The position numbers and the translations under genes were made by a program. Below, one piece after another: positions 1 to 9,768 of a stretch of DNA of 64,000 nucleotides. This DNA comes from Clostridia bacterium (GTDB lineage: Bacteria; Bacillota; Clostridia; Oscillospirales; Acutalibacteraceae): NCBI GenBank assembly GCA_017507805.1, contig JAFWAC010000013.1, positions 29,086 to 93,085 on the forward strand, given 5' to 3'. The notes beneath the pieces were generated by a model, which saw only the letters and a list, made by a program, of their open reading frames with translations, did not search any database and was not told the origin of the DNA. Numbering within the stretch: position 1 is the first letter of the stretch; each line of letters begins with the position of its first letter.

Positions 1-2791
1 CGGTAGTTTCCGACCAGTATACATCTTTTGCTATTCGCATGAACTCGCGCCTGCTTATTTGCTGCGTTGTGCCCAACAAATACAGAGCAATATTTTTTGT
101 AGTTAGAGAATCAACAGTATCTTTTTTGCAAATATGGGGACGACTAAATTGATACTTCTCGCCAAGCATATTCTGCAACACATAGAACAGATTTGTAGCG
201 TTCTCAACACCATTTTGAGATAAAAACTCGGGATATTGATTGTTTATCTTCTCAAATATCAATCTGTCACTACAATAGCCTTTGAATTGAGCAAAAATTT
301 CTTCAAGAGTTTCTGAAATTACATTGGAATCTTCGTCATTTATTTTCAGATTACCTTGAGTGTTAAAGCTATTATAATCCCACTGTAATAATTTTTTTGA
401 ACCATTAATAGCGTTAACCAACATAATATCGGACAGGCCACCTATTTTCTGCTTTATCTCATTTCGAGTAACGGCACGTCCTTTCTCTAAAATGAACATG
501 ACAATACGATCAGAAAGACTTAATGATGTTCCTTCTACATTTTTCTTTGTTATGCAATCTCTTGAAAAATCATACTCATCGCGATATAAATAGGCCAACA
601 GTCCATGCAATCCATGGTAATTGGTGATATCCGACGTAAACGCCAATACTCCTTCAAATTCATTAAAAATCTCCATAAAATAAAGAGTTTTAAGCGGACT
701 TGTATCAATATATTTTTTTATATCTTCTATAACGGATTGGTCGAAATTGATATATTCAATGAGTTTTGCTTTTCCGCGATCGCACAAAATCAAATGTTCT
801 GAAAGTCGTGCCCCTATCGCGCGGTTTTGTTCAGGAAGATTGTATTCTCCATATTCTGCGTGAAAGAGTTCACGTAGCAAATTCATATCCTCGTCGCAAG
901 ATAGCGATATGCCATCTTTAAAATGCTTAGCAATAAGCATCAAGCATAATTTCGCGTATGTTTGTTTCTTTAGAAACACCAAATCGCCGTAAAAATACGC
1001 TCCGCTTTCAATTAAGTAATTCAAATATGCATCAGCAGATATGAATCCTAAGTCGGAGTTGTTTAGCATTTCTTCTATTTGCGGTAAACTTTCGAAGAAA
1101 TTAATACCATCTTCACCTATGAATTCATCAGTCAGTCTGCTTAATTTTTTTACGGTATCTTGAGCTTCGCTTTGTTTTTTTATAAACATATCAGCAAAAG
1201 ACAAATATTCTAATGAATAGGATTCCTTAAGAGTATACATTATAACCGTATCAAAAGCATCATCATCAAAGAACTCCAGAACATCCTGCGCTGTAATATA
1301 AGACAAATTGTTATGTGTCATATGCTGCTCTACAAGAGAACCAAACAACGGAGCAAATTCTTTGAAAAATTTCGACTCAATTTGTCGAACGCGTTCTCTC
1401 GTTAAACCATAATTGTCCGCAATTTCTTGTAGAGTTTTTTTGTTAGCTCTATCAACATATATAGCAAACTCGCGGTTATCCTTATGATCATTCAATCTTT
1501 CTGTAGCAATTGTCAACAAGGCCTTCTCAAACACTTTAATCTTTTCAAGAGTTTCAATTCCTTTTAAACGCCCGAACATTTGAATTAATTTCCCCGAAGT
1601 AATAGTGCTTAGATCGCCGATTTTAGAGAAACCGTTTTCAAAAAATTTTGCAATGTTTTTTGCGGTGATTCTTGCCAAACTTAAATATGAAATACCCAAA
1701 TCAACATTACTTTGATCAATAATTATTACTGGTTGTGCTTCCGCAGAAGTTTCTTCCTGCTCATCATAGTTATGAAAAGAAGATCCTTCATGCACCAAAT
1801 TATTATATTTTTCTTTTATAGCATTTAATTTCCCGACTCCAAACCCTGGTTCGTTAAGCAATAATGTAAAATCAAACCCATTAAGATCTGATAGTGTTGT
1901 CATACCATTTCTTTCGCAAAACTCCACAAATAAGTGGTATGTATTGCCAGCAAATAACGAGGCTATACTATTTGGATCTGAACTTGCAGACACCCGAAAA
2001 TCAGAAAACTGTATCAACGTCATAATTTCTTCATAAGTTTTTTGGCCCATGTTTTCCAGATATCGCAAATCGTTATATTCAATAAATTTCATAACTTCGC
2101 CAATAGTATAGAGTTTATTGCGCATCAAAATGTTTTTTGCTCTTACGCTTAGGTTGATAATTTCCAATACAGACAAAGACAGATCTAAATTATCCTTGCT
2201 TTTCGCTTTTATAATTTCTTCAACCTGGACACAAGGCGTTTCCTCAATTGTAACCGAAACATTATTAAGACTATCATAACGATTAAAGTAAAGAGCAATT
2301 TTCGCGTTTATAATTTCCAAAAGTTTACGCCATTCGTCACGCGACATAGCGTCGGAAATATCGTCATTAAAAACAAAAACAAGTTTATCGTTTGAATTGT
2401 GATTTAAAAACAAATAACCTTTTTCGTTTATAACCTTAAACGGCTGACTTTTGATAACTGCAAACACATCATAATCTGACGAGTTTTCAATTTCGGAAAT
2501 GCGTGTATCAACCTCATAATCCGGCTGCAATCCCTTATTTTTTCTTTCGAGGTAAAACTCCTTAATGGAGGGAATTACCCTTGCTACAGAGGCCTCGCTT
2601 TCGTCCAACACAGCTTCAATAATGTATTTCAGTAGCAACAATTTATACGACTTCTGATAACCAGCCAGGCTATCCGGAGTGCCAATGTATGAGATAAAAT
2701 TGCTTTTTGTTGTATTAAGTATTGCCGAGCAGTTGGCACAAGAACTAAGCCCGGTATCAACTATATCACATCCACAATTAAAACATTTCAT
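1..2791 (-). CDS. Large zinc-ribbon / alpha-CTD-like / sigma-region-4 HTH protein (3' end off window)
   Basis: The frame starting with ATG at 2791 stays open to the left edge, about 930 codons, so the C-terminus is missing. GGAGGG lies 8 bases upstream. Residues 1-21 hold two CxxC pairs (C3/C6 and C18/C21), a zinc ribbon. Residues about 205-262 resemble the RNA polymerase alpha C-terminal domain (LSVRAKN, then TIGEV, then ENMGQKTYEEI). Two more helix-hairpin-helix-like units lie at about 288-330 and 367-420. Residues about 452-479 match sigma-70 region 4.2 (LQEIADNYGLTRERVRQIE). The C-terminal 450 residues are unrecognised. It is the last visible gene of a leftward operon, 22 bases after its neighbour. 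I infer a DNA- or polymerase-binding component; no enzymatic motif is visible. Confidence 0.85.
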   Translation of the reverse strand, partial: MKCFNCGCDIVDTGLSSCANCSAILNTTKSNFISYIGTPDSLAGYQKSYKLLLLKYIIEAVLDESEASVARVIPSIKEFYLERKNKGLQPDYEVDTRISEIENSSDYDVFAVIKSQPFKVINEKGYLFLNHNSNDKLVFVFNDDISDAMSRDEWRKLLEIINAKIALYFNRYDSLNNVSVTIEETPCVQVEEIIKAKSKDNLDLSLSVLEIINLSVRAKNILMRNKLYTIGEVMKFIEYNDLRYLENMGQKTYEEIMTLIQFSDFRVSASSDPNSIASLFAGNTYHLFVEFCERNGMTTLSDLNGFDFTLLLNEPGFGVGKLNAIKEKYNNLVHEGSSFHNYDEQEETSAEAQPVIIIDQSNVDLGISYLSLARITAKNIAKFFENGFSKIGDLSTITSGKLIQMFGRLKGIETLEKIKVFEKALLTIATERLNDHKDNREFAIYVDRANKKTLQEIADNYGLTRERVRQIESKFFKEFAPLFGSLVEQHMTHNNLSYITAQDVLEFFDDDAFDTVIMYTLKESYSLEYLSFADMFIKKQSEAQDTVKKLSRLTDEFIGEDGINFFESLPQIEEMLNNSDLGFISADAYLNYLIESGAYFYGDLVFLKKQTYAKLCLMLIAKHFKDGISLSCDEDMNLLRELFHAEYGEYNLPEQNRAIGARLSEHLILCDRGKAKLIEYINFDQSVIEDIKKYIDTSPLKTLYFMEIFNEFEGVLAFTSDITNYHGLHGLLAYLYRDEYDFSRDCITKKNVEGTSLSLSDRIVMFILEKGRAVTRNEIKQKIGGLSDIMLVNAINGSKKLLQWDYNSFNTQGNLKINDEDSNVISETLEEIFAQFKGYCSDRLIFEKINNQYPEFLSQNGVENATNLFYVLQNMLGEKYQFSRPHICKKDTVDSLTTKNIALYLLGTTQQISRREFMRIAKDVYWSETT

Positions 2792-2813
2792 CCATTAACC
2801 CTCCGGTAATTTA

Positions 2814-3539
2814 TTAAAAACCAATCTTTTCCTTTATTTTACTATAAATCTCATCATAAGACAAGCAGTCAAGAACATAAATTCCGCCAAGCAAATTTAC
2901 ATACTGAGAAATTGAGCGGACCAAATCACGATTTATGGCCACACCATTCTTTTCTGCATCCAACAAGGCCCCAATAACCGCCTTAGAAATTGTCGCATTG
3001 CTTGCAAAACCGATATCCAAAAGATTATTAATATAGTCCTGATCTCTGCAAACAAATTCGGTCAGCTCATAAGGATTTGCACTTTTTGCATCATAAGTGT
3101 GATATCCTATCCACCACAAACGGGCGACACCGTTTCTAAACAGAGGCCTTTTACTATAACCGTGTTTAGCATTCTTAAAAAAGAAGCGGTCAAATTTATC
3201 TCCTTCATTCTCGGGCATCCAACGATATCTCATATAATCTAACCCTTGATAAAGTGTAAAGGCAACCCAAATTCTTTCATCAGACGCCTGAGATTCGCTA
3301 AGGCCTTTCATATGGTTGTAAACACGCCTAATATTCTCAACATCCGTTGCAGTGGGCCGATCTTGTGACATATCAAAAGAAAACTCTTCAATCTCTATGG
3401 AACTATCTCTTATAATGGTGTTGTCGTTCATAAGAGTGGGAAGATCAGCAGACTTCTTTTTAATTACCTCTTTGAAAATAGTAGGGTAGTTACTTTTGGC
3501 AGCCAATAGGCCCTCTTCTGTAATAAACTTAATCCTCAT
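2814..3539 (-). CDS. DUF6339-like protein
   Basis: This 241-residue soluble protein has no signal peptide or membrane segment. It carries a central LARLWWIGYHTYD-type stretch (here ARLWWIGYHTYD, about residues 138-149) followed by PYELTEF, which I recall from the DUF6339 family; that assignment is from memory and not searched. AGGAGGT lies 7 bases before the ATG. The start overlaps the stop of the upstream gene by 11 bases, which suggests translational coupling. It belongs to the leftward GHKL ATPase operon. No catalytic motif is visible, and its function is unknown. Confidence 0.8.
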   Translation of the reverse strand: MRIKFITEEGLLAAKSNYPTIFKEVIKKKSADLPTLMNDNTIIRDSSIEIEEFSFDMSQDRPTATDVENIRRVYNHMKGLSESQASDERIWVAFTLYQGLDYMRYRWMPENEGDKFDRFFFKNAKHGYSKRPLFRNGVARLWWIGYHTYDAKSANPYELTEFVCRDQDYINNLLDIGFASNATISKAVIGALLDAEKNGVAINRDLVRSISQYVNLLGGIYVLDCLSYDEIYSKIKEKIGF

Positions 3540-4401
3540 CGTCAGAACCTCCTGCCAAGTATGTAAGCGCCTTCATTGTAGGCGAATCCATTAACAGCTG
3601 TGCTGTTCTGTAAGAATCTAAATTTTCCAAACCTTGCTCATTAAGTTCAATTTTTAAATTCTTACAGGCCTTTGTAAGCGCTTTAAACCATCTGCACTCA
3701 CTAAAGTTATATAATTCATATCGTGATGCTTTTAATTCATCAAATACTTGGACCAACGCAGGAATTATAATCATTGAATGCATTATACTCTGTAACTCAA
3801 GATTGGTACTTAAATTTTTATAAATGTTACAACCTTTAACAGGAATTTTAATAACAATTTTAGGCTTAGTACTGCTGACATCAACATTTATAACTGTTTC
3901 GTTAGGATCAAGATTTGGAGCAATAGAAAAGATAGAGGACGTGTTTTCCAAATCGTCCTTTTGTTTGTTGAGTTCAATTTCAACACATCCGCCTATTGCA
4001 AGAAGACATCCTCTTTTGATATTAAAAGAGAATCCTTTGTAATCAGCAGAAAAGTCAGGGTTTTTGTATCCGATTAGATCTTCGTTTGCAACAATTACAG
4101 TGCTTATTTGTACGGCACCGTTCAGCTTGCTTTGATGAATCTGAAATACCTCTTCCTCTTCTTGAGTGATTACCGCATGTCTATAGCAGGTTTGCACACA
4201 TTCAATATGATGAACAAAAGACACTTTCTTGGATTTAATTAACTCATTGATACCATCATTGTTTGAAGATGCTTTAAGAATGAATTTTACGTAAAAACCA
4301 TTCTTCTCAAAATCCACATCACTGGTAAATGTAGCTGTGGCATATGATTCATTTCCCTTAGCAATCACTGGATACGGAAAATACTTATTTCTTATTAACA
4401 T
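3529..4401 (-). CDS. Unknown 290-residue protein of the GHKL ATPase operon
   Basis: I do not recognise this protein. It is soluble, with a beta-rich first half (about residues 1-195, alternating hydrophobic strands) and a helical second half ending in an acidic SDDED tail. Starting with FPYPVI after a short basic leader, it has scattered cysteines without a metal-binding pattern. GGAGGTG sits 7 bases before ATG. It overlaps the GHKL ATPase gene by 17 bases and the next gene by 11 bases, so the three proteins are probably made in fixed ratio and may form a complex. Confidence 0.78.
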   Translation of the reverse strand: MLIRNKYFPYPVIAKGNESYATATFTSDVDFEKNGFYVKFILKASSNNDGINELIKSKKVSFVHHIECVQTCYRHAVITQEEEEVFQIHQSKLNGAVQISTVIVANEDLIGYKNPDFSADYKGFSFNIKRGCLLAIGGCVEIELNKQKDDLENTSSIFSIAPNLDPNETVINVDVSSTKPKIVIKIPVKGCNIYKNLSTNLELQSIMHSMIIIPALVQVFDELKASRYELYNFSECRWFKALTKACKNLKIELNEQGLENLDSYRTAQLLMDSPTMKALTYLAGGSDDED

Positions 4402-6262
4402 ATGCCTTCACCTCCATTGAACAATAATCTTTATGAGTTATTTGCAAATTTATTCTGATATGTTGGCCTTTTTCAAAGCGTAATCCAGTCAGCGAATTAT
4501 CTTTTATATTCAATCCCGAACCGCCGATTTGCGAAGCGCTAACCAATTCCGCTTTATAGGCTTCGGTTTCACCAGAGAGGAAAAAACTTAATGTTCCGTA
4601 ATCCGAATCTTCAGAAGGAATAAAATCCACCATATATTTGCCTTCATCCGGATTGCTACAAATATACATAAATTTTGAGGGCCTAATTTCTTTAGGCGCA
4701 CTTACCGTTTTCTCTGTGCCGTCAACATAGTCTACCGGTTGCGGAGGTCTTGGAGGATCGACAGGCGGATTCTTAGGTTTTTCATGCACCCAATCCTCAT
4801 CAAGCTCACCATCTACAGGATCTACCTTCTTCTCAGATTCGTCATCGCCGTTTTCCACAGATACAACATCCGGAATGTATTTACGATCAATAACTCGCTT
4901 TTCTATTTCCAAAACGGTGTCCGAAATAGCTTCTTCTTTATTCTGGTTTTTCTCATCATCAGGAGTGTCAGGTATGAAGTTTCCTACACCAACAGCATCC
5001 ATTTCGTTTTGGGGGCCTTGTTCAACCAGTTCTTCCAAGCACTTTTTCATATAATCATTTATCGATTTAATGAGCTGTTTTGCTTCAAAAGGATTTGCTG
5101 CACGGTCGGGTTGCCACTCAGTGTGCTCGGGATTTTCAAGAGCGCGAAGCTTTTCGTTAATTGCGTCTCCATCGATAAACAAAACACCCGCAAAGGAAAT
5201 AAAACCGTTAATTCTATCTCCATCCTTGATTTTCATTCCCGTTTGACGAATCATAGCCACTTTGCGATGAAATTCGTTGCCGTTAAGCAGATAACCAAGC
5301 TTTATTATTCCTAATCCCAGGTGATTGTTTTCAAACCATTTGGTTTCAGGGCTTGTTAGTACCTGGTAATATTCCAGAACGTAAGTGTTTGTAAGTTCTT
5401 CGGCATATTCTTCCATAAGATCTGCTAATGTAGATTTATCAATTTTCACATTGCCTACATTAACAGTAAGTTTTTCATTCCAAATTGCACCAAGAAAACT
5501 ATCCAAGATAGAAACAACGATTGCCGTTTCCCAATCCTCTTGAGAAAAACGGTAACCCAAAACGTACACATCTGTTCCATAATCGCCAGGATCTCTTTTA
5601 AAGCTCGGATCTAAATTCAAGGACTCGAAAACGGGAGTATTGCGCTCGTTGCCATAATAACCAATACCTTGTGTTGTTTCACCATCATCGCGCTCAAAAG
5701 TTACCAATCTGGATACGCCCTGATACGCGCACTCGTCCTCAATATCATATGTATTATAAAATACCGTCGAAAAATCCGAGCAAGCAAACGGCGCAAATTT
5801 ACCTATACCGAATGATCCTCCGGCAGGGCCTTTCTTATCAGAAGATCCGGAAGATTTAGTTAGTCGCATCCAGTCGGTATTTATATCCGTAGTTTTCTTT
5901 GAACCAGTAAGACCTTTTGTTTTAAAATCACTAATTCTTAAAACACTAATTTTTTCAGCGCTAATTTTTTCAAATGCATTTTTGAAAAAATCCTTAGTGG
6001 TCTTGGCTTTCTGTCCGTTCCAGTACGCTAAACATTTTTCAAAAGTTTCTTTCAATACATCTGCACCTGGAACGTCATTCGTCGGAATTTCATAGTTGGC
6101 GAAATCAACACGAACAGTTTTTCCTGTCGCTGCATCAAGAGAGTTTTGGCAGATCTCTCGAGCCAAAGACTTTAAGGGCGTACCTCTAAAAGTGGCTACA
6201 CCCGAATCATTAATACCTTTATTTTCACCATGGTCATTCGAAGGGAAATACCAATATGCCAT
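4385..6262 (-). CDS. GHKL (Hsp90/MORC-like) ATPase
   Basis: The N-terminal part has the Bergerat ATP-binding fold: an N-box with E36, N40 and D43 in REICQNSLDA, a DFKTKGL segment near residue 110 in the place of the DxGxG box, and a glycine lid GGSFGIGKFAPF near residues 148-160. A transducer-like region follows to about 420. An acidic linker with a proline-rich PKNPPVDPPRPPQPV stretch then leads to a C-terminal beta domain of about 95 residues. AGGAGGA lies 7 bases before ATG. Related ATPases (MORC, Hsp90, MutL-like) clamp around DNA or proteins, and several bacterial ones sit in phage-defence loci. The neighbouring genes suggest a defence or DNA-surveillance ATPase, but this is inference. 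Confidence 0.88.
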   Translation of the reverse strand: MAYWYFPSNDHGENKGINDSGVATFRGTPLKSLAREICQNSLDAATGKTVRVDFANYEIPTNDVPGADVLKETFEKCLAYWNGQKAKTTKDFFKNAFEKISAEKISVLRISDFKTKGLTGSKKTTDINTDWMRLTKSSGSSDKKGPAGGSFGIGKFAPFACSDFSTVFYNTYDIEDECAYQGVSRLVTFERDDGETTQGIGYYGNERNTPVFESLNLDPSFKRDPGDYGTDVYVLGYRFSQEDWETAIVVSILDSFLGAIWNEKLTVNVGNVKIDKSTLADLMEEYAEELTNTYVLEYYQVLTSPETKWFENNHLGLGIIKLGYLLNGNEFHRKVAMIRQTGMKIKDGDRINGFISFAGVLFIDGDAINEKLRALENPEHTEWQPDRAANPFEAKQLIKSINDYMKKCLEELVEQGPQNEMDAVGVGNFIPDTPDDEKNQNKEEAISDTVLEIEKRVIDRKYIPDVVSVENGDDESEKKVDPVDGELDEDWVHEKPKNPPVDPPRPPQPVDYVDGTEKTVSAPKEIRPSKFMYICSNPDEGKYMVDFIPSEDSDYGTLSFFLSGETEAYKAELVSASQIGGSGLNIKDNSLTGLRFEKGQHIRINLQITHKDYCSMEVKAYVNKK

Positions 6263-6277
6263 TTTGTTTCCTCCTGA

Positions 6278-6496
6278 TTATAATTTGAACTTTGCAGAAT
6301 CGTCACTTGAAGATTCAAACTTGGCTTTTGCGCTTTTCAGTTCAGAATCTATTGCATTGAAGATTTTGCGAACATCTTCCTTTGAGTATTCATAAGTAGC
6401 CTTACTTGAGCAATTGCCAAGAAGGCGAATCATATCAATTATTTTATTTGTTCTCGCCTCTGCAATTCTAACAAATCTTTCTTTTTTGGACTCCAT
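6278..6496 (-). CDS. Small conserved helical protein leading the GHKL operon
   Basis: This is a basic 72-residue protein, highly helical, beginning MESKKERFVRIAEARTN. I have seen similar short proteins annotated only as hypothetical in Firmicutes accessory regions. AAAGGAG at 6506-6512 favours the ATG at 6496 over a GTG nine bases upstream. It is the first gene after the leftward promoter and ends 15 bases before the GHKL ATPase gene. It could be a small regulator or a structural partner of the ATPase; nothing in the sequence decides. Confidence 0.75.
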   Translation of the reverse strand: MESKKERFVRIAEARTNKIIDMIRLLGNCSSKATYEYSKEDVRKIFNAIDSELKSAKAKFESSSDDSAKFKL

Positions 6497-6527
6497 ATTC
6501 AGCACTCCTTTTAAATATTTCGATTAT

Positions 6528-6579
6528 ATTTTACAAATATTTTGAGAGTTTGTCAATATTTATTTTTAGAATATTTTGA
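6528..6579 (-). promoter_or_regulatory. Promoter of the GHKL ATPase operon
   Basis: On the minus strand a perfect -35 TTGACA (6551-6556) stands 17 bases from -10 TAAAAT (6528-6533). The decamer AATATTTTGA occurs twice on the + strand at 6536-6545 and 6570-6579, once between the promoter boxes and once upstream, which could be operator half sites. The operon is divergent from hipBA. Confidence 0.7.
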
Positions 6580-6693
6580 AAATATTTTTGATTTGTATTG
6601 TGTTTTGTTGATAAAAAGCCTATCCAATATGCAAAAAAATGGGCCATATAAACATGAGCGCTATAATATAAAGCTCTTTTTTGAGTATATAAC

Positions 6694-6740
6694 GTTTATA
6701 ATTATTGACAAAACTATGTTTATGGTTTATAATTATTGAC
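6694..6740 (+). promoter_or_regulatory. hipBA promoter built inside a 16-bp direct repeat
   Basis: The 16-mer GTTTATAATTATTGAC occurs twice, at 6694-6709 and 6725-6740, 31 bases apart (about three helical turns). The first copy supplies the -35 (TTGACA, 6705-6710) and the second supplies the -10 (TATAAT, 6728-6733), with exactly 17 bases between them. A repressor bound to these repeats would occlude the promoter. The likely ligand is the downstream HipB-like protein, as in other hipBA operons. Confidence 0.75.
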
Positions 6741-6757
6741 GTTAAGAGGTGGTTAAA

Positions 6758-7078
6758 ATGAGAAAAGTTTCATACAATATATTACCGGCAACAGAGGAAA
6801 TACTAAAAACGATGGGCGAGCAGATTAAATTAGCAAGATTACGTCGAAATTTAACTGTAGAACTTGTTGCAGAACGTGCCCGAATCAGCCGAGCTTCACT
6901 TTGGAATGTAGAAAAAGGTAGTCCATCGGTTGCTATCGGAATATATGCTGCAGTTTTGCATGCCCTTAACAACATGGATAAAGATCTTTTGCTTGTGGCA
7001 AAAGATGATGTTATGGGCAGAAGAATGCAAGACCTTAATCTGCCTATCAGAAAAAGAGCACCAAGAAAGGAGGACTAA
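6758..7078 (+). CDS. hipB: HipB-like XRE-family antitoxin
   Basis: A cro/C1-type helix-turn-helix spans about residues 20-75 (GEQIKLARLRRNLTVELVAE, then ISRASLWNVEKG). The family antitoxin represses its own operon and neutralises HipA. The ATG at 6758 is preferred to the in-frame GTG at 6749 because AAGAGGTGG (6744-6752) overlaps that GTG. The predicted transcript start is about 6740, so the leader is very short. The stop is three bases before hipA. The C-terminal tail is basic (RKRAPRKED). Autoregulation through the direct repeats just upstream is inferred. Confidence 0.88.
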   Translation: MRKVSYNILPATEEILKTMGEQIKLARLRRNLTVELVAERARISRASLWNVEKGSPSVAIGIYAAVLHALNNMDKDLLLVAKDDVMGRRMQDLNLPIRKRAPRKED

Positions 7079-7081
7079 ACA

Positions 7082-8341
7082 ATGCCTAAAAATGAAAAAA
7101 TCATATACGTTTATGACAGTTTTACTTTTGATGAGCCTATGTTGTTTGGCAAACTTTACGTAAACGTCATAAAAGGCGGAGAAACATATTCTTTTGAATT
7201 TGATAAAAATTGGCTCAAATCCACGAACTATCCGGTTTCAATTGATCCTGATTTTATGGGATATGGTGGCAGAGAATATCCGAGCAGTGATTCTATTTTT
7301 GGTGTGTTTGCAGATGCCTCGCCCGACCGTTGGGGACAAATTTTGTTAAACAAAAGAGAGCGCAAACTTGCAGACAGAGAGAAAAGAAAACCCAGAAGAT
7401 TAAATCGAAGCGATTTCTTGATGGGTGTTTACGACGAATGTCGAATGGGCGGCATCCGTTTTAAATTAGAAAAAGATGGAGAGTTTTTATCAAATGATAA
7501 AGAAACGGCTACTCCTCCATGGGCGACACTCAGAACATTAGAAGAAGCATCCAGACAATTTGAGAATGATGACACTGCGCTTGATGAAAAGTGGTTAAAT
7601 CAACTTTTGAGACCCGGTTCTTCTCTTGGCGGTGCAAGACCGAAAGCCACAGTAGTTGATACCGAAGGACAGCTTTGGATTGCAAAATTCCCTTCTAAAA
7701 ACGATACCAACAATACGGGTGCTTGGGAAAAGGTTGTTCACGATCTTGCTCGCATGTGCGGACTCAATGTTCCTGAGTCTAAACTTGAGACCTTTTCTAA
7801 ACTTGGCAGTACATTTCTTGTAAAGCGCTTTGACCGCGACGGAGACAAACGTATTCATTTTGCTTCTGCAATGACCTTGCTTGGAAAGACAGACGGTGCC
7901 TCAGCTGCAGATGGCTCAAGCTATTTAGATCTTGCATCTATAATTATAGCAAACGGAGCGAATCCAACCGCAGATTTAATTGAATTATGGAAACGTATTG
8001 TATTTAATATGGCAGTCTCGAGCACTGATGATCATTTGAGAAATCATGCGTTCATTTTGAAGAAGAGTGGATGGGTTCTATCTCCGCTTTACGACGTAAA
8101 CCCTGTGCCTTACGGTGACGAGTTGTCGCTAAATGTAAACGAAAATGACAACCGCATCTCTATTCCACTTGCGATTGAAACAGCTCATCGTTTTGGAATT
8201 AAAGAGGAGGATGCTACTAAGATTGCTAACGAAATCACGGAAACGGTACGTAACAATTGGGAAAAGCTTGCTGCAAAGTACGGAATATCGCGAGGACAGA
8301 TTGAAGATATGAGACCTGCTTTTAGTGCATGCTATGAATAA
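7082..8341 (+). CDS. hipA: HipA-family Ser/Thr kinase toxin
   Basis: This 419-residue protein has the family architecture: an N-terminal subdomain with FGVFADASPDRWG near residue 78, a glycine-rich loop RPGSSLGGARPKA (about 175-187) with the substrate lysine following in WIAKFPSK, a catalytic loop SSTDDHLRNHAF and a metal-binding SPLYDVNP. In known systems HipA phosphorylates a target such as glutamyl-tRNA synthetase, which stalls translation and causes persistence. AAAGGAGG (7066-7073) precedes ATG by 8 bases. All expected catalytic residues are present, so it should be active. It sits between other conflict-type modules in the island. Confidence 0.93.
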   Translation: MPKNEKIIYVYDSFTFDEPMLFGKLYVNVIKGGETYSFEFDKNWLKSTNYPVSIDPDFMGYGGREYPSSDSIFGVFADASPDRWGQILLNKRERKLADREKRKPRRLNRSDFLMGVYDECRMGGIRFKLEKDGEFLSNDKETATPPWATLRTLEEASRQFENDDTALDEKWLNQLLRPGSSLGGARPKATVVDTEGQLWIAKFPSKNDTNNTGAWEKVVHDLARMCGLNVPESKLETFSKLGSTFLVKRFDRDGDKRIHFASAMTLLGKTDGASAADGSSYLDLASIIIANGANPTADLIELWKRIVFNMAVSSTDDHLRNHAFILKKSGWVLSPLYDVNPVPYGDELSLNVNENDNRISIPLAIETAHRFGIKEEDATKIANEITETVRNNWEKLAAKYGISRGQIEDMRPAFSACYE

Positions 8342-8437: not shown

Positions 8438-8869
8438 TTATTTACGTTTTCTTGCGTAGGATTCTTTTAGTCGGTCGATTGCCATCTCGGGACTCATAGT
8501 ATGATACATCAAATACATAGAACGCATAAGCGAAACGGGAGCTTGTTTATAAATTTCTTTACTTGATTCTCCTGTATAGAAATGCCAATAGCGGTAGAGA
8601 TAGCCGGACCAATAAAGCGTTTCGCTGTCGTACAAATCGCCGTTTGTTGCAAGAGTATCTGCATTTTGCTCTTTCAGGCGGTCGATGATATATCCTTGGC
8701 CTGCCCACTGCATATGATTGAAAATTTTATCAAGGTCAGCAGCTGTGTTAGAAAGCATGAAAGTCTTGATGAAGGATTCACTTGAAAAGCCTTCAGTGGC
8801 AGACATCTCAAAGAGTTTACCCTGCATATCGCATAGAGTTAATTCAAATACATCAAGCATCTCATTCAC
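8438..8869 (-). CDS. Partner of the XRE-DUF3990 protein (candidate antitoxin)
   Basis: This 143-residue helical protein has no membrane segment. Its middle carries WSGYLYRYWHFYTGESS and its end is basic (ESYARKRK). I do not know a named family for it. Its start overlaps the stop of the XRE-DUF3990 gene by 8 bases, so the two are probably co-translated. Because the partner looks like an ADP-ribosyltransferase-fold protein fused to an XRE repressor, this gene is a plausible antitoxin or accessory factor. That role is inferred from position only. Confidence 0.72.
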   Translation of the reverse strand: MNEMLDVFELTLCDMQGKLFEMSATEGFSSESFIKTFMLSNTAADLDKIFNHMQWAGQGYIIDRLKEQNADTLATNGDLYDSETLYWSGYLYRYWHFYTGESSKEIYKQAPVSLMRSMYLMYHTMSPEMAIDRLKESYARKRK

Positions 8870-9707
8870 CTCTCAAAATCTCATCGAAATACTTGCCGAC
8901 ACGTCTGTACTGTTTTTCAATTTGACTTGCAACAGCATAGCTTTCTTTTCTGCGTATTGCCGCCTTTTCCTGAAGAGCAGTAAGTTCCATCGGATAAATA
9001 TCCGATTCGGAAACAATAGTAAATGCATCGCATCCTTTTTGAGTCTTAGCAACATACTGTTTGCCAAGGTCAAGAGCGACTAGGCAGTTCATAAGTGCAG
9101 TGTCGGTAATATCTCCATTGAAGAAACGGGTAAGCTCGGTGTAAAGGCGATCGTTGGCAATATAACCGATTACCATATCGTAACCGTCAAACAGGTGTGC
9201 ATACTTTTCATACAACACAGTACCTTTTATTGTATCCATATAGCCGCGATGATATGCGACCACCATTGCCCAGTCTAAACAAAGTTCAAGATCAAGAACC
9301 TTTAGACCGTCAAGATTTAAGTCTACTACGTAGAACTTTGGGTTTGGTTCACCGCAAACTAAAGTCAAAGGTTGGATGGTATCTGTGCCAGTATAGAAGC
9401 CAACACCAAAGTCACAGTCCTCTCGGCTCTTGGGTTGAATTGTTCCGTTGAGACCTTCTTTAGAGCCGTGATAAAGAATAAGTCTATCGTCATCTTGTTC
9501 GTAAAAATACTTTTTAACAATTACGTCCGCGATATCAATATTGTGGTTGGCGCAGAAAAGATTAAGTTGGTTTTGCGCCATAGGATTGGGTATCGACTTA
9601 CCATTCTCCCAACGATTGATGGAAACAACAGTAGTACCGATTTCTTTGGCGAACTGCTCCTGGCTCATACCTGCAAGCTCGCGCATCTTCTTAACTAAAT
9701 ATTTCAT
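8862..9707 (-). CDS. XRE HTH fused to a DUF3990 (ADP-ribosyltransferase-like) domain
   Basis: Residues about 1-65 are a cro/C1 helix-turn-helix (MRELAGMSQEQFAKEIGTTV, then RWENGKSIP). From about residue 75 comes a DUF3990 domain starting LILYHGSKEGL and including FGVGFYTGTD; that family is thought to share the ADP-ribosyltransferase fold. The ATG at 9707 is chosen over one six codons upstream because AGGTGA sits 8 bases before it. A fused repressor-toxin encoded with a small overlapping partner is typical of toxin-antitoxin modules. The target is unknown. Confidence 0.82.
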   Translation of the reverse strand: MKYLVKKMRELAGMSQEQFAKEIGTTVVSINRWENGKSIPNPMAQNQLNLFCANHNIDIADVIVKKYFYEQDDDRLILYHGSKEGLNGTIQPKSREDCDFGVGFYTGTDTIQPLTLVCGEPNPKFYVVDLNLDGLKVLDLELCLDWAMVVAYHRGYMDTIKGTVLYEKYAHLFDGYDMVIGYIANDRLYTELTRFFNGDITDTALMNCLVALDLGKQYVAKTQKGCDAFTIVSESDIYPMELTALQEKAAIRRKESYAVASQIEKQYRRVGKYFDEILRGE

Positions 9708-9715
9708 AATGAATT

Positions 9716-9768
9716 CACCTATCATTTGTTTGTGATTTTATTATAAAATATGATAGGTGGTTTGTCAA
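9716..9768 (-). promoter_or_regulatory. Promoter and operator of the XRE-DUF3990 operon
   Basis: On the minus strand -35 TTGACA (9763-9768) and -10 TATAAT (9740-9745) are 17 bases apart. A perfect 10-base inverted repeat, CACCTATCAT at 9716-9725 with its complement at 9750-9759, brackets the -10 box. Autorepression by the XRE domain is the likely use. Confidence 0.75.

Follow-up and report, generated by a model that had tools for sequence, protein, structure and literature searches.

What is the function of the five-gene operon that lies at the left edge of a 64,000-nucleotide stretch of Clostridia bacterium DNA (GenBank assembly GCA_017507805.1, contig JAFWAC010000013.1, positions 29,086 to 93,085; hereafter the window)? 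The genes, designated S, A, B, C and D in the order of reading, form a single leftward operon, all on the - strand. Judged from sequence, the operon, which lies on a mobile island in a gut bacterium, probably serves in anti-virus defence. Its relatives often abut enzymes that methylate DNA and sometimes enzymes that cut it, which suggests joint action. A coupling to C5 cytosine methyltransferases (MTases) was supported for many of the loci compared, not for all. The explanation tentatively favoured, at a confidence somewhat short of even, is that S-A-B-C-D constitutes an anti-phage, ATP-driven clamp or looping module coupled to restriction-modification (R-M) or to methylation.

Composition and conservation of the operon

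The window's locus (label L003, contig G000:C33) extends beyond the window, and features outside it are given in L003 coordinates. S (6278..6505, - strand) encodes a small conserved protein of 75 residues from a GTG start or 72 residues from an inner ATG (6496-6494 region). It is followed on the same strand by A (4385..6262; 625 residues), B (3529..4401; 290 residues), C (2814..3539; 241 residues) and D (1..2791, running past the window start; 1096 residues). The full D gene corresponds to L003:14501-17791 (window -499 to 2791) and stops 499 bases beyond the window start. A shares 17 bases with B, which in turn shares 11 with C. An earlier note on this DNA had described a five-gene leftward operon with a 72-residue protein and with middle genes overlapping by 11-17 bases, all of which was borne out by the open reading frames (ORFs). 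It had also credited the operon with one good promoter. A promoter-like site, TTGACA-17-TAAAAT (11 of 12; a consensus match only), is present just upstream of S (6528..6556, - strand); however, a scan of 6200-7100 returned 7 such sites versus 4.5 +/- 2.3 in shuffles, so that the motif alone is no evidence.

The module was compared across 97 loci, comprising the window's own, 8 plasmid loci (drawn from 17 and 24 matching plasmid records), 8 from whole-genome searches and 80 from genome_contigs, the last being the best 80 of 383 A relatives. The first 17 loci were recruited mainly via B, and the other 80 via A alone. Two pairs are duplicate DNA (L023 = L064; L025 = L106), so at most 95 of the 97 are distinct. 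Scored with in-house hidden Markov models (HMMs), B adjoined A in all 97 loci, C was found in 90 and S in 51; within the best 80 A relatives, all had B and 74 had C. Six of the seven loci that lacked C end no more than 77 bases downstream of B, and the remaining locus, L021, is a divergent relative. Counted on longest-ORF starts, A overlapped B in 91 of 95 cases and B overlapped C in 69 of 90. This conservation of gene order speaks against chance ORFs. The B family itself is rare, being found in 8 of 398 genomes of the phylum and in 2 of 99 nearer relatives (the window's genome is counted in both).

D was found as a separate gene in 22 of the 97 loci; it follows C in 17 of them and precedes the module in the other five (L076, L078, L082, L084, L091). 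L092 has a fusion of C in which the fused stretch matches D (E 5e-4) and by eye resembles the N-terminus of D. On a tree of A, the presence of D required at least six changes when contigs that end beside the module were counted as D-free. The window fell in a supported clade of 11 rows, of which 10 carry D; in the eleventh, L038, the contig ends 363 bases after C. Judged by how often S and D occur, A-B-C forms the core, frequently accompanied by S, and D recurs as an optional fifth gene. The recurrent co-occurrence envisaged in the earlier note was borne out for A-B-C (90 of 97 loci), for S (51) and, in two arrangements, for D (22), often near other defence or mobile genes.

The product of A matched the PADLOC model PDC-M33A over nearly its full length (1.9e-215). 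Among 80 non-redundant A proteins, GHKL-type motifs were located with patterns drawn up from recall of the superfamily: the N-box in 77, G1 in 77, G2 in 73 and G3 in 79, the G3 pattern being weak at three letters only. In the window's A, the N-box residues are E36 and N40. The motif ExxxH occurred at residues 331-430 in 79 of the 80 proteins, compared with a mean of 14.7 (maximum 23) of 80 after shuffling, and corresponds to E376-H380 in the window. In the available text of a 2008 paper, an ExxxH near the end of the S5 domain is treated as the signature of paraMORC2; paraMORCs are assigned to R-M systems, and DNA looping is suggested for them (PMC2292703). On these motifs and the published signature, A fits the paraMORC2 family of GHKL-type ATPases, in keeping with the GHKL assignment of the earlier note. 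Pfam gave no HATPase family for A, and A, B and S had no family over the cut-off. In one locus (L085:9989-11926) A is divided into two ORFs and is probably a broken copy.

B matched PDC-M33B (7.4e-90), and C matched both PDC-M33C (6.6e-77) and Pfam DUF6339 (PF19866, 3.6e-51), confirming the DUF6339-like assignment made earlier. In an alignment of 40 S sequences, residues F, R, L, N, Y and Y were invariant. Searches with Pfam, NCBIfam and PADLOC assigned A, B, C and S to no nuclease family, and fold searches with B and C yielded no assignment. An S homologue was also observed immediately before an unrelated 840-residue gene that adjoins a D12-like MTase (L133:177-2987). The 840-residue protein had no Pfam or PADLOC match, and judged from this locus S may serve another system too.

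For D, the Pfam and PADLOC scans covered the first 930 residues. They confirmed the sigma-70 region 4 named in the earlier note (PF04545, 3.7e-7) and added an RNA polymerase alpha C-terminal domain (alpha-CTD)-like domain (PF03118, 1.6e-7), which that note did not mention. Against solved RpoD region 4 the match was 1.7e-9, and the region-4-only chain 2p7v_B scored equal to full-length sigma; the match is carried by region 4, with no significant match to sigma region 2 (core binding, -10 recognition). The architecture of the D family comprises an N-terminal domain, alpha-CTD-like repeats, sigma region 4 and a long C-terminal part.

D-family matches were found in 10 of the 398 phylum genomes, the window's own included. 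L126 and L127 hold similar D-led operons, and the neighbours in L127 are BrxP (1.1e-265) and BrxC (1.5e-131). Two D-family loci adjoin PbeA (tested in L128 and L132), with PbeC tested in L128. L130, L131 and L134 match only the N-terminus of D. In L130 this N-terminal domain is fused to a McrB-like MrcB_N-AAA_5 protein beside a DUF2357-PDDEXK_7 protein, an McrBC-like arrangement. The L129 match is a lone 506-residue ORF, and the remaining match, in G105, is weak. Profiles of A, B, C and S found no match in the BrxP/BrxC, Pbe or McrBC-like loci; S was matched only in L133, which had been fetched for S. Across this handful of loci, the neighbours tie D more to modification-linked defence than to transcription. 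The D family may accordingly be viewed as a shared DNA-recognition adaptor of modification-based immunity (paraMORC2 modules with an MTase, BREX IV-like systems and Pbe), which here would direct a GHKL clamp to DNA without the host cytosine mark, although we regard this as rather doubtful.

C5 methyltransferases beside the module

When the genes flanking the 97 loci were clustered, the C5 cytosine MTase family (PF00145) was present in 52 loci, and 52 of its 67 proteins lay within 3 kb. With distances counted from the module edge and D taken as part of the module, 50 C5 genes were found in the 176 kb making up the first kilobase, 11 in the 158 kb of the second and 8 at 2-8 kb. The corresponding densities were 0.285 per kb in the first kilobase, 0.070 in the second, 0.014 in the third to fifth and about 0.01 at 2-8 kb; at 5-8 kb, 2 genes were found in about 348 kb. 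A C5 MTase lay no more than 3 kb from the module edge in 49 of the 77 loci that could be assessed: 36 of 46 with S, 13 of 31 without S, and 15 of 18 with D. In flanks of up to 1.5 kb, a C5 match was obtained for 36 of the 97 module loci versus none of 30 AbiEii control loci, these being the 30 loci returned, some of them shortened by contig ends.

On a quick tree of A (61 rows), the C5 linkage required at least eight state changes, so the link has probably been gained or lost repeatedly. The position of the MTase also varies: it may lie upstream, downstream and convergent, or overlapping the start of A (L072, L079, L080, L099). In L037 and its tree sister L034, a C5 MTase and a restriction endonuclease (REase) of the AlwI cluster are found inside the operon, between S and A; the AlwI label derives from a weak Pfam match of another cluster member (3.1e-5, just over the cut-off).

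In the window's own locus this commonest partner lies just outside the window, where a predicted fusion protein (L003:11621-13663, + strand) combines a C5 MTase (PF00145, 9.8e-71) with an NgoFVII restriction nuclease (NgoFVII PLD, 8.4e-45) and the DNA-binding domain at the C-terminus of that nuclease (NgoFVII_C, 1.2e-34). The type II R-M beside the operon thus appears as an MTase and a nuclease in one predicted protein. Upstream of the fusion gene, also outside the window, is a helix-turn-helix (HTH) gene (L003:11311-11631, + strand). The fusion gene points towards D, and the sole gene between them is an IS200 tnpA-like gene, named by eye (L003:13804-14280, - strand; outside the window). In L030, from a metagenome-assembled Clostridia genome of water-deer gut, the stretch that runs from S through the fusion gene as far as the HTH gene is 91% identical to that of the window's locus (7133 bases at 91% and 2490 bases at 91%), and the IS200 insert is absent. 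In L031, alignment with the window's locus (about 70-76%) is confined to A, B, C, portions of D and the MTase. Based on these comparisons, the natural cassette is S-A-B-C-D with the MTase-NgoFVII fusion and the HTH gene.

Several further genes were observed near the module. In L041, L044, L048, L049, L059, L062, L063, L065, L070 and L086 the adjoining C5 MTase belongs to a subfamily that carries a large insert behind its first catalytic motifs. HhH-GPD glycosylase-like genes were present in eight loci, seven of them distinct (L025 (= L106), L035, L072, L079, L080, L094, L097), and a Vsr endonuclease in another set of eight (L017, L018, L029, L034, L036, L042, L058, L062). Both enzymes fit the repair of deaminated 5-methylcytosine. 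Upstream of A-B-C in L063 (3444-9526) are an HsdR-cluster gene and a gene for a 1002-residue SIR2_2 protein (5.9e-27).

Candidate explanations

From these sequences and neighbourhoods we infer a complex of the gene products, ATP-driven clamping, a choice between self and non-self by methylation, a targeting role for D, and defence. In the favoured explanation, A would be the motor, dimerising on ATP and closing round DNA or partner proteins, while B, C and S would be subunits of one complex with A, and D its DNA-binding targeting subunit. The neighbouring C5 MTase would mark self DNA. On an encounter with unmarked DNA, or once such DNA has been cut (in the window's locus, by the fused NgoFVII-type nuclease), the complex would load, clamp or loop that DNA, either stopping its replication or aiding its destruction.

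Several observations weigh against this explanation. An HMM search of the PDB with A matched no GHKL structure, and hhalign of A with a three-sequence MutL-like profile gave a probability of 0.6, which is no match. Flanks of 7 kb or more on both sides were available for 47 loci, and in 12 of these (11 distinct) profiles for four kinds of MTase (C5, N6 type I, N6/N4 and D12) found nothing; S was present in three of these 12 and D in none. By eye, the neighbours in L024, L028 and L085 look housekeeping or unrelated, and some A-B-C loci are without recognised R-M or defence neighbours. The occurrence of MTase-free loci suggests that A-B-C does not depend on local R-M. In L044, L048, L049 and L059 an MTase is present with no recognised REase among eight further neighbours scanned (not every neighbour was annotated), so restriction through a partner nuclease is not general. 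The sample also bears on the reading: its genome_contigs part covers the best 80 of 383 A relatives, and its loci are not independent, 95 A proteins of the chosen length range reducing to 80 at 85% identity. Furthermore, the association of S with the C5 MTase was not separable from shared ancestry (12 independent pairs, about 10 of them uninformative).

The same four loci bring in the chief rival, which we consider unlikely on balance but closest to the clamp explanation. Here the module itself would attack DNA not marked by its C5 MTase, and no classical REase would be needed. BREX and DISARM are thought to work by such methylation-licensed restriction. In the four loci, S-A-B-C stands directly beside a single C5 MTase (531-554 residues, with the large insert), and the further neighbours scanned are transposases, part of a transporter, a CAAX protease, an AAA ATPase, a histidine kinase or unknown. 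The intimacy of the arrangement agrees with this rival, as the MTase meets the module head-on (35-46 bases) or overlaps the start of A. However, an REase is present in the window's locus, in L034, in L037 and in several plasmid loci; A-B-C occurs in the 12 well-flanked loci that had no MTase by the four profiles; and A, B, C and S matched none of the nuclease families sought.

If the module were instead an independent defence system of sensor and effector that merely shares islands with R-M genes, C5 genes would not be expected at a density at least 20 times higher in the first kilobase than at 2-8 kb of the same loci. The empty AbiEii control and the R-M pair inside the operon of L034 and L037 argue in the same direction, and this explanation is held to be distinctly unlikely.

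Close linkage to several types of R-M would also be seen if the module guarded R-M, stopping growth once phage anti-restriction proteins disable the neighbouring system, a logic known for PARIS and PrrC. Here, however, loci without R-M exist, and no effector domain (nuclease, NADase or membrane) was recognised in the five proteins with Pfam, NCBIfam or PADLOC, and a guard is held to be very improbable. Least probable of all is the proposal of the earlier note that D recognises promoters or RNA polymerase, so that the complex blocks phage transcription: sigma region 4 and the alpha-CTD-like domain are promoter-touching parts, but region 4 is the only sigma region found, D is optional, and its relatives adjoin BrxP/BrxC and PbeA/PbeC or lend their N-terminal domain to the McrB-like protein of L130, neighbours that fit DNA targeting at least as well.

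Genomic setting and known systems

The operon has a tRNA-Ser gene next to it (L003:1398-1488). Nearby ORFs resemble an integrase, a relaxase and MobC-like and RepA-like proteins, as read by eye without a family search, and on that reading the surroundings look like a mobilisable element that has integrated. A search for att repeats gave none. GC content is 0.31-0.40 over most of the island and 0.41-0.46 at window 12.5 to 50 kb.

The two toxin-antitoxin-like modules that the earlier note placed in the operon's island were recovered beside the operon. The first, divergent from the operon, consists of an HTH gene and a HipA-like protein (window 6749-8341; HipA_C, 6.6e-52) and has a 12-of-12 sigma-70-like promoter (6705-6733). 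The second consists of an HTH-DUF3990 protein (DUF3990, 9.5e-26) and a 143-residue partner (window 8438-9725). Upstream of the window, three genes (L003:7608-10582) resemble an ABC-three-component system, with CTD9-like (1.5e-3) and AAA_21-like (4.4e-3) matches that are both under the cut-off. They are followed by a peptide-deformylase gene (L003:10623-11036; 3.4e-29), which is retained in L030.

The locus is compact: about 10 kb hold the four core genes, an optional, putatively DNA-binding protein and a fused MTase-nuclease, and for this reason the ideas of clamping, looping and methylation sensing are directly testable. The PADLOC candidate PDC-M33 also becomes linked to DNA modification.

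The operon had been put forward as a candidate undescribed system, a view that could not be kept in full. Its adjacent A, B and C match the three families of PDC-M33 over nearly their full length, and A fits paraMORC2 (PMC2292703). None of the PDC-M33 models matched S or D, and no paper naming PDC-M33 or DUF6339 was found in the literature searched. New here are S as a fourth gene, D as a fifth gene in two arrangements, and the C5 MTase genes that abut the module.

The likeness to paraMORC2 lies in the GHKL-type motifs, the ExxxH C-terminal to them and the R-M neighbourhoods; the hosts in the present loci are mostly Gram-positive. The available text of PMC2292703 mentions no partner that corresponds to B, C (DUF6339), S or D, and within the literature searched the name paraMORC2 was found in that paper only. 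The same text holds paraMORC ATPases to be relatives of eukaryotic chromatin MORC proteins, some of which, according to abstracts, silence transposons.

Other known systems share parts of this composition. The HEF_HK and Response_reg_2 pair is described, in the available part of PMC8011034, as a GHKL protein with a conserved partner beside C5 DNA methylases and type II R-M. None of S, A, B, C or D had a Pfam match to HEF_HK, Response_reg_2 or HATPase_c. MZA carries a MutL-like ATPase. A sigma-like protein, MzaA, is described for MZA (mzaABCDE), and the similar system of PMC9523054 includes a cytosine methyltransferase. VcSduA, a Shedu protein with a GHKL domain (paraMORC3), resembles A as a GHKL ATPase in phage defence; however, as far as the available text of PMC12137116 goes, it is a single protein with a fused nuclease, whereas the present operon had no Shedu nuclease match. 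Finally, the BREX IV-like (BrxP, BrxC), Pbe (PbeA, PbeC) and McrBC-like systems have D-family proteins, or the N-terminal domain of D, beside or inside them; the loci compared differ from the present operon in giving no match to the profiles of A, B, C or S.

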